64,000 nt of DNA from Gammaproteobacteria bacterium. GTDB lineage: Bacteria > Pseudomonadota > Gammaproteobacteria > Enterobacterales > Permianibacteraceae. Below are positions 18,123 through 19,201 of this stretch, one piece after another. Made by a program: the position numbers and the translations under genes. The notes under the pieces were generated by a model, which saw only the letters and a list, made by a program, of their open reading frames with translations, was not told where the DNA came from and did not search any database. Position 1 is the stretch's first letter; every line of letters starts with the position of its first letter. The stretch lies in contig JACPFT010000017.1 of the NCBI GenBank assembly GCA_016182845.1, forward strand, positions 124,001 to 188,000, read 5' to 3'.

Positions 18123-18278
18123 CTAGTGGTCCATGCGGGGTGTCAGTTATCGGCGCCTGAAACCCTGATACAGCGTTGCCGCTCCTCGCCATAGCCCTGC
18201 TATGACTCGTCGCGGCGCCTTGTCTCAGGACTTCATGCATCCGAACTGACGTTAACCACACCCCACATGGACCACTAG
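18123..18278. repeat. Long imperfect inverted repeat element
   Basis: The arms CTAGTGGTCCATGCGGGGTGT (from 18123) and its near-perfect complement ending at 18278 match at 20 of 21 positions. The interior holds a smaller hairpin (CATAGC-CCT-GCTATG) and paired GGCGCC segments. No open frame spans it. It may be a MITE-like insertion or the structured 3' end of the che transcript. Confidence 0.75.
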
Positions 18279-18279
18279 C

Positions 18280-18352
18280 TGTCGGATTTTTTTACAGATT
18301 TCGGGGCGGGTCAGTGATAAGCCCAATTTATTGGCATGTCTTCTTTACAGAT
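18280..18352 (+). promoter_or_regulatory. Candidate upstream activator sites for the sigma-54 promoter
   Basis: Two TGTC...TTTACAGAT motifs (18280-18299 and 18337-18352) lie 53 bp apart, about five helical turns. They sit 60-135 bp upstream of the -24/-12 element, where an enhancer-binding protein would act. PrsR, the usual regulator of PEP-CTERM genes, is the natural candidate but is not in the window. Confidence 0.45.
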
Positions 18353-18414
18353 GAAACTTATTACGCGTCAGTACATGGCACATAACAGTTTGTTTTATAT
18401 GATATATATTTTTT

Positions 18415-18430
18415 AGGCACGTATTTTGCC
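18415..18430 (+). promoter_or_regulatory. Sigma-54 (-24/-12) promoter of the PEP-CTERM gene
   Basis: AGGCACGTATTTTGCC has GG at 18416-18417 and GC at 18428-18429 with ten bases between, matching the RpoN consensus. Transcription should start near 18440, about 27 bp before the ATG at 18467. Sigma-54 control of PEP-CTERM genes through PrsK/PrsR is known in related bacteria such as Zoogloea. Confidence 0.8.
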
Positions 18431-18466
18431 TACACTGTGGACTTTGCCACGCAGTCCGGAGCCCCC

Positions 18467-19201
18467 ATGAACCTGAAGTCCCGCATTCTGAGCGGTGTGT
18501 TCGCCATCGGTAGCCTGTTGTCCCTCGACGCCTCCGCCATCACCCTGCCCTTCACCCTGACCGGCGGCTGGATGCAGGGCACTCAGACCCAAACGCAACC
18601 CGGCGGCCAGGGCCAGGTCTCCTTCATCGAAGCCGACGGCTCGGTGCCGGGCGCCAGCCACGAACTGCGCTGGGGCGTACCGGCCAGCACCGGCAATGGC
18701 CAGCAGAGCGGCCTGCGCATCGACAACGAGCAGGGTTTCATCAGCTCCGACGGCGTGCCCGTCCTGCTGTCCACCCTGACTCACTTCAACAACATCATCA
18801 AATCCGGCACGTCTTCCCTGACCGGCGTGATGCTGCGCAGCCAGCTGGAACTGGCCGGCCTGTTCGACTCCACCGACATCGGCGTCAGCTTCACCGAGAC
18901 CCCCAACGTCGCCCAGTGCGCCACGCCGACGCCGAACGGCTCGAACTGCGATGATTTCTTCACCTTCGGCGCCGCGCTGCCCTCCTTCACCTTCGTGATC
19001 GGCAACCACAAGTACCGCCTGGACGTATTCCTGGTCCCGGGCGACGGCGTCGAGATCATCGACGGCGTGGTCTACACCCGCGAGAACGGCACCAGCCAGT
19101 TCTTCACTTACGGCCGCCTCATCGAGATCGCCGAACCGGGCACCCTGGCCATGCTGGGCTTGGGCCTGCTCCTGGCCGGCCGCCTGCGCCGCCGGATCTG
19201 A
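18467..19201 (+). CDS. THxN-family PEP-CTERM exported protein
   Basis: This 244-aa secreted protein has a signal peptide with a likely cut after DASA (about residue 24). The name-giving THFNN motif is at residue 105. The C-terminal sorting signal comprises AEPGTLAMLGLGLLLAG followed by RLRRR: a Pro-containing motif, a membrane helix and a basic tail. Such proteins are processed by exosortase (EpsH/Xrt) and tied to extracellular polymer or floc formation. I start at the ATG at 18467, which gives a proper signal peptide. It has its own sigma-54 promoter and its own terminator, so it is a single-gene unit. No exosortase gene is in the window. Confidence 0.88.
   Translation: MNLKSRILSGVFAIGSLLSLDASAITLPFTLTGGWMQGTQTQTQPGGQGQVSFIEADGSVPGASHELRWGVPASTGNGQQSGLRIDNEQGFISSDGVPVLLSTLTHFNNIIKSGTSSLTGVMLRSQLELAGLFDSTDIGVSFTETPNVAQCATPTPNGSNCDDFFTFGAALPSFTFVIGNHKYRLDVFLVPGDGVEIIDGVVYTRENGTSQFFTYGRLIEIAEPGTLAMLGLGLLLAGRLRRRI

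Follow-up and report, generated by a model that had tools for sequence, protein, structure and literature searches.

What switches on a PEP-CTERM gene whose upstream region joins a sigma-54 promoter to two similar motifs spaced 53 bp apart? Bacteria of sludge and sediment build their flocs and biofilms with PEP-CTERM/exosortase proteins. The window, that is, the whole 64-kb stretch of DNA analysed (G000:C23:124001-188000), belongs to a gammaproteobacterial genome of 3.82 Mb in 26 contigs, hereafter the host. Very probably, the region upstream of the gene is a sigma-54 promoter that depends on an enhancer and belongs to the PEP-CTERM (PrsK/PrsR) regulon; PrsR would act there over a short face-of-helix loop, often aided by IHF. 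The parts of this region and its neighbours are the following.

18123-18278, unstranded: MITE-like inverted-repeat element of 156 bp, with 21-bp arms at 18123-18143 and 18258-18278
18280-18296, plus strand: distal full predicted PrsR box TGTCGGATTTTTTTACA (TGTC-N7-TTTACA), 119 bp before the -24 GG
18344-18349, plus strand: proximal half-site TTTACA, inside TTTACAGAT (18344-18352), 66 bp before the -24 GG, on the canonical rung
18383-18395, minus strand: IHF-type site TAACAGTTTGTTT, one mismatch to YAANNNNYTGATW, 33 bp upstream of the -24 GG
18416-18429, plus strand: sigma-54 -24/-12 element GGCACGTATTTTGC (GG-N10-GC)
18467-19201, plus strand: PEP-CTERM gene (244 aa; ATG at 18467), THxN family, choice-of-anchor K domain

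An earlier note on this DNA had claimed a -24/-12 element ahead of a PEP-CTERM gene, and both claims hold. GGCACGTATTTTGC is the sole match without mismatch to GGCACGNNNNTTGC within the window, and the downstream protein exceeds the cut-offs of both NF038125 (126.5 bits; cut-off 85) and TIGR02595 (20.8 bits; cut-off 16), with GGAG as the Shine-Dalgarno sequence of its gene (by eye). The note had also described two motifs of the form TGTC...TTTACAGAT. Both copies of TTTACAGAT are present, at 18291 and 18344 (two matches in the window against 0.02 expected, a number reached in 0 of 100 shuffles; four copies in the whole genome, these included), but the proximal TGTC (18337-18340) lies 4 bp out of register, with three bases between it and TTTACA where the distal copy has seven. 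On a weight matrix built from 166 promoters the distal box scores 26.0 bits (median of the set 23.2) and the proximal copy, with GGCA in the place of TGTC, -1.8 bits. As for TTTACAGAT being the PrsR recognition core, this candidate was rejected: its other two genomic copies lie away from promoters, columns 18-20 are unconserved, and the conserved core is TGTC-N7-TTTACA, which does not include the GAT. Such a core, thought by the note to be undefined, had in fact been predicted; the accessible text of Haft et al. 2006 (PMC1569441) describes, before PEP-CTERM genes, a motif of 17 nt with TTTACA at its end, which may be repeated and is predicted to be the PrsR site; after a spacer of 62.8 ± 10.6 a -24(GG)/-12(GC) motif follows. 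The TGTC-N7-TTTACA box is their motif 1, and box and regulon are already known.

The box occurs at 13 sites in the host genome. At eight of them, together with a -24/-12-like element, it precedes a PEP-CTERM-like gene: seven of the host's ten PEP-CTERM hits carry it in this position, and the eighth gene (C24:335810), missed by TIGR02595, was recognised from its C-terminus by eye, several PEP-CTERM families matching its product weakly and all below cut-off. Eight of the 11 PEP-CTERM-like genes found in the host thus have the box and three lack it. Of the other five sites, three have no promoter-like element, and the remaining two precede genes for an S8 protease and a 71-aa protein. The host encodes PrsR (736 bits; cut-off 502.6), PrsK (735; 300) and PrsT (679; 312) in adjacent genes at one locus on contig C4; PEP_O_lig_1 and an acyltransferase, both exosortase-system-associated, are encoded nearby. 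The earlier note had cited the dependence of PEP-CTERM genes on RpoN and PrsK/PrsR in Zoogloea and relatives; the host itself is not a Zoogloea, the closest named relatives of its PrsR being gammaproteobacterial (Plasticicumulans, 71 and 68% identical; Thioalkalivibrio, 70%).

Two of the boxes outside PEP-CTERM genes deserve description for themselves. The S8 subtilase with a PA domain (L122:1142-2695, host C26) stands behind a full box and GGCATGAAAATGGC at a gap of 67, and is a possible protease of the PEP-CTERM regulon. The 71-aa protein (L128:1224-1436, host C23) has a 60-aa counterpart in a distant genome (L205:1747-1929), 38% identical over 58 residues; both genes lie behind predicted PrsR boxes, at gaps of 55 and 63, and neither protein matches a known family in Pfam or NCBIfam.

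For the comparison among genomes we used a strict pattern made of the box, a gap of 48-78 and GGCA-N7-TGC, the gap being counted between the last base of TTTACA and the -24 GG. Among the 394 genomes of the host's order this pattern gave 148 matches in 81 genomes, against five for a reversed-pattern control; in a sample of the phylum it matched 42 of 398 genomes (control, one). All strict searches together yielded 201 distinct matches (148 + 12 + 2 + 39, the 39 lying outside the order). Left out of the promoter table were L072 (gap 111, no PEP-CTERM-like gene) and the host promoters L016 and L015 (gaps 65 and 66); the 198 promoters formed 166 clusters at 60% identity. PrsR exceeds its cut-off in 97 of the 394 genomes, and extended gap ranges were searched in 80 of these, namely the 76 that are box-positive and four others.

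The note's assignment of the promoter to the RpoN/PrsR type is supported at this scale. PrsR occurs in 76 of the 81 box-positive genomes and in 21 of the 313 others (Fisher 4e-55, kinship ignored), and a PEP-CTERM-like protein is encoded downstream of 137 of the 166 clustered promoters, against 3 of 166 in a divergent control. We consider it very unlikely that another NtrC-family regulator binds the box instead of PrsR. Such candidates exist, the host having nine matches to the PrsR model with the sigma-54 AAA+ part, PrsR included, and a PrsR match at E<=1e-150 is missing from five of the 81 box-positive genomes; the co-occurrence just given speaks for PrsR, and so does DAP-chip of the PrsR homologue of D. 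vulgaris, in which five predicted PEP-CTERM targets were enriched, although, in the part of that study that is accessible, the PrsR motif was not validated (PMC3333781).

The distances between box and promoter follow a ladder. In the 165 promoters whose gap does not exceed 98 bp, the distances fall on rungs at 52.5 (n=21, sd 1.05), 63.8 (n=107), 74.4 (n=25, sd 0.79) and 84.6 (n=10), with two further promoters near 96 and none at 56-59 or 71-72; gaps of 79-109 were scanned in the 80 genomes. The slope is 10.7 bp per rung, one helical turn, and none of 5000 smoothed resamplings at each of three bandwidths matched the observed periodicity. Spacers rich in GC run slightly longer (66 to 67 versus 63), as do those of the host, at 65 and 66. 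These rungs are masked in the published spread (mean 62.8, SD 10.6), and the helical quantisation of the gap appears to be a new property. Common descent of a few promoters, with no selection for helical phase, is the least probable of the alternatives weighed here: the genomes are related, and 32 of the 198 promoters joined existing clusters, but the rungs persist in the 166 clusters and outside the order, and they recur within single genomes, such as G320 with gaps of 53, 64 and 74.

On this ladder the window's half-site sits at 66 and its full box at 119, five turns farther, which upholds the note's suggestion that the two copies are helically phased, 53 bp being five turns of about 10.7 bp. 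The spacer from the most 3' copy of motif 1 is thus 66 with the half-site counted and 119 from the full box, the range of Haft et al. being 32-92 nt. A full box at 119 lies outside the scanned rungs; since gaps of 110-140 gave a single other match in the 80 genomes (G105, gap 111, with no PEP-CTERM-like gene behind it), its position is nearly unique.

Between box and promoter a second register appears. With no model assumed, conserved columns emerge at -32/-31 (AA), -25/-24 (TG), -22 (W) and -20 (W), counted from the GG, and they hold in three of the four tabulated gap classes (62-64, 65-67 and 73-76). We take them to be the IHF consensus in reverse, YAANNNNYTGATW. An IHF-type site with at most one mismatch stands at fixed register in 83 of the 166 promoters (shuffles: mean 3.0, maximum 10, in 200 sets), in reverse form at -34 to -32 in 59 and in forward form at -22 to -19 in 27; the register of the window's site, -33 or -32, accounts for 53 of 84 such matches. 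The commonest cores, -33..-21 (reverse) and -20..-8 (forward), mirror each other about -20.5 from the GG, so that both orientations would serve one bend centre. The IHF bend centre would adjoin the W of WATCAR. In the 12 promoters with gaps of 79-100 no site occupies the standard places and three have forward sites at -31, one turn farther. As to the other promoters of the host, which has a GC-rich genome and encodes both IHF alpha (TIGR00987, 168 bits) and IHF beta (TIGR00988, 152 bits) above cut-off, one has a perfect forward site at -31, one a single-mismatch site at -22 and the rest sites with two or three mismatches.

A contact of the polymerase alpha-CTD (UP-like), or the site of another nucleoid protein, might also produce an element in this AT-rich spacer, and the other 83 promoters have no IHF-type site with up to one mismatch at the register. 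We nevertheless find such an element unlikely, for the model-free columns have the spacing of the IHF consensus, and cores mirrored about -20.5 are what an asymmetric protein making one bend would leave. An IHF-type site at fixed register in two mirrored orientations appears, like the ladder, to be a new property of these promoters.

The full box and half-site of the window have one parallel in the host. The note had proposed a genome-wide search for motif pairs before other PEP-CTERM genes, and the outcome is mixed: the 53-bp pair recurs at one other promoter only, that of a paralogue (gene C4:18390-19115; protein 66% identical to the window gene product), and six more PEP-CTERM-like genes have a single box. 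The paralogue has its full box at 118 and its half-site at 65. Only 16 of the 47 bp between the boxes are identical in the two promoters, yet both TTTACA, the 53-bp spacing and the -24 are kept, which argues that the half-site serves some purpose; the chief rival to this view is descent alone. It is possible, if rather doubtful, that the distal box alone matters, the proximal TTTACA being a decayed box or a coincidence and the 53 bp inherited through duplication. The low scores of the proximal copies as full boxes (-1.8 bits in the window, 4.8 in the paralogue) fit that reading, as does the rarity of paired boxes elsewhere, since at 17 bits or more the 166 promoters have ten second boxes on the same strand and one on the opposite strand. 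It accords less well with the proximal TTTACAG kept at exactly 53 bp across such diverged DNA, or with a half-site that occupies the host's canonical rung (gap 65-66). The window gene has no close relative in the named genomes searched, and its matches in 59 related genomes, the host aside, reach 33-36% in four only, so that footprinting by orthologues is limited to the paralogue.

Paired, phased boxes were also considered as a rule for the whole class and rejected, second boxes of at least 9 bits in the 166 promoters numbering 18 on the same strand versus 13 on the opposite strand (five versus six in a first pass on 61 loci). The ten strong same-strand second boxes, at offsets from -54 (L202) to -232, show no helical phasing by eye. 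A separate observation concerns the paralogue promoter (L281:5235-5440, host C4), which carries a perfect IHF-type site, CAAATATTTGATT, between its boxes, by eye some seven turns farther upstream than the standard register.

One base separates the right arm of the MITE-like element from the distal box; the element is a neighbour and lies outside the promoter proper. It occurs at 20 places in the host genome and was not found in the two family members searched. A further copy (C1:128421-128586) lies 74 bp from C1:128660, a TGTC-N7-TTTACA site without a promoter-like element.

From these sequence patterns we infer the following course of activation. Phosphorylated PrsR would bind the TGTC-N7-TTTACA box and assemble an AAA+ hexamer, which would touch the sigma-54 polymerase at -24/-12 by way of a short DNA loop. 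For the loop to function, box and promoter would have to keep a fixed helical face, which would permit gaps only about every 10.7 bp, and IHF would often assist by bending the DNA near -20 from the GG. In the promoters of the window gene and the paralogue, the full box lies five turns past the canonical rung, and the half-site in the canonical place is perhaps a second, cooperative contact of PrsR.

On the whole, we think it reasonably probable that the PEP-CTERM promoters of Pseudomonadota share one grammar, in which a PrsR box, an IHF bend and a sigma-54 promoter are set on a helically quantised ruler, IHF lying either way round one centre. The window's promoter would be its extended form, with box and half-site five turns apart, and promoters of this kind would also drive genes other than PEP-CTERM genes and, within a single alphaproteobacteria-like family, a structured small RNA that is unannotated.

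The loci behind this last proposal have features of their own. Nine of them (L105, L106, L107, L108, L109, L111, L112, L114 and L262), outside the host's class, mostly of family f63 and probably alphaproteobacterial, have a consensus box and a sigma-54 promoter (gap 65-67) with no evident gene downstream. A structured stretch lies about 10-130 nt after the -12 (fold z <=-2.8 in eight of nine; L108, -1.4), L109, L111 and L112 have GC hairpins resembling terminators, and several of the loci face a gene resembling, by eye, a Grx4-type glutaredoxin. Rfam gave no family for these stretches and tRNAs only; they are candidates for a PrsR-driven small RNA. Seven further boxes (L207, L223, L225, L178, L116, L167 and L067) precede genes without PEP-CTERM, whose products carry RR in the N-terminal part (by eye Tat-like) and share the motif SPG-x-W, with S69, P70, G71 and W73 (L207 numbering) invariant in all seven. 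No Pfam or NCBIfam family matches these proteins above cut-off, and they may represent an undescribed partner of the regulon.

Hitherto, the site of the PEP-CTERM activator was a prediction only. The regulon can now be sought by rule, from a sharply defined box, distances in steps of 10.7 bp and an IHF-type site at fixed register. These features also delimit hundreds of enhancer-promoter geometries, a natural library served by one activator family, in which the effects of loop phase and bending on sigma-54 activation can be tested. The window offers a switch for a biofilm-matrix gene, of a type predicted in 2006, in which a regulator site placed at whole turns and a frequent bend site make the mechanism easy to test.

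In the open-licence literature, the scope of this statement (subscription work, for example on Zoogloea, lies outside it), we found no report of a ladder or an IHF register for PEP-CTERM promoters, and the accessible part of the D. vulgaris sigma-54 regulome paper (PMC4641369) mentions neither PEP-CTERM, PrsR nor IHF. The nearest known system is the element of Haft et al. 2006, with which the window's promoter shares motif 1, motif 2, the PEP-CTERM gene and a genome encoding PrsR, PrsK and PrsT. It differs in that its full box lies at 119 and only a half-site at 66, the spacers of Haft et al. from the most 3' copy reaching 92 at most; their text (PMC1569441), as far as accessible, has neither helical quantisation nor an IHF site, both features coming from the present analysis. 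In Aquincola tertiaricarbonis, pepA is an RpoN1-dependent PEP-CTERM gene with mapped start and -24/-12 and an enhancer predicted upstream (PMC9850573); judging from the available sections of that paper, it is a single gene whose enhancer geometry and IHF lay outside the analysis. The IHF-assisted sigma-54 promoters of the NifA and XylR types, for which looping is established (review, PMC7057263), run in the order UAS, IHF site, -24/-12. The window's promoter has in common with them an IHF consensus between UAS and -24, here as a predicted site; they have other activators and boxes, whereas here a single geometry recurs throughout the PEP-CTERM regulon, and IHF-type sites of either orientation share one centre.
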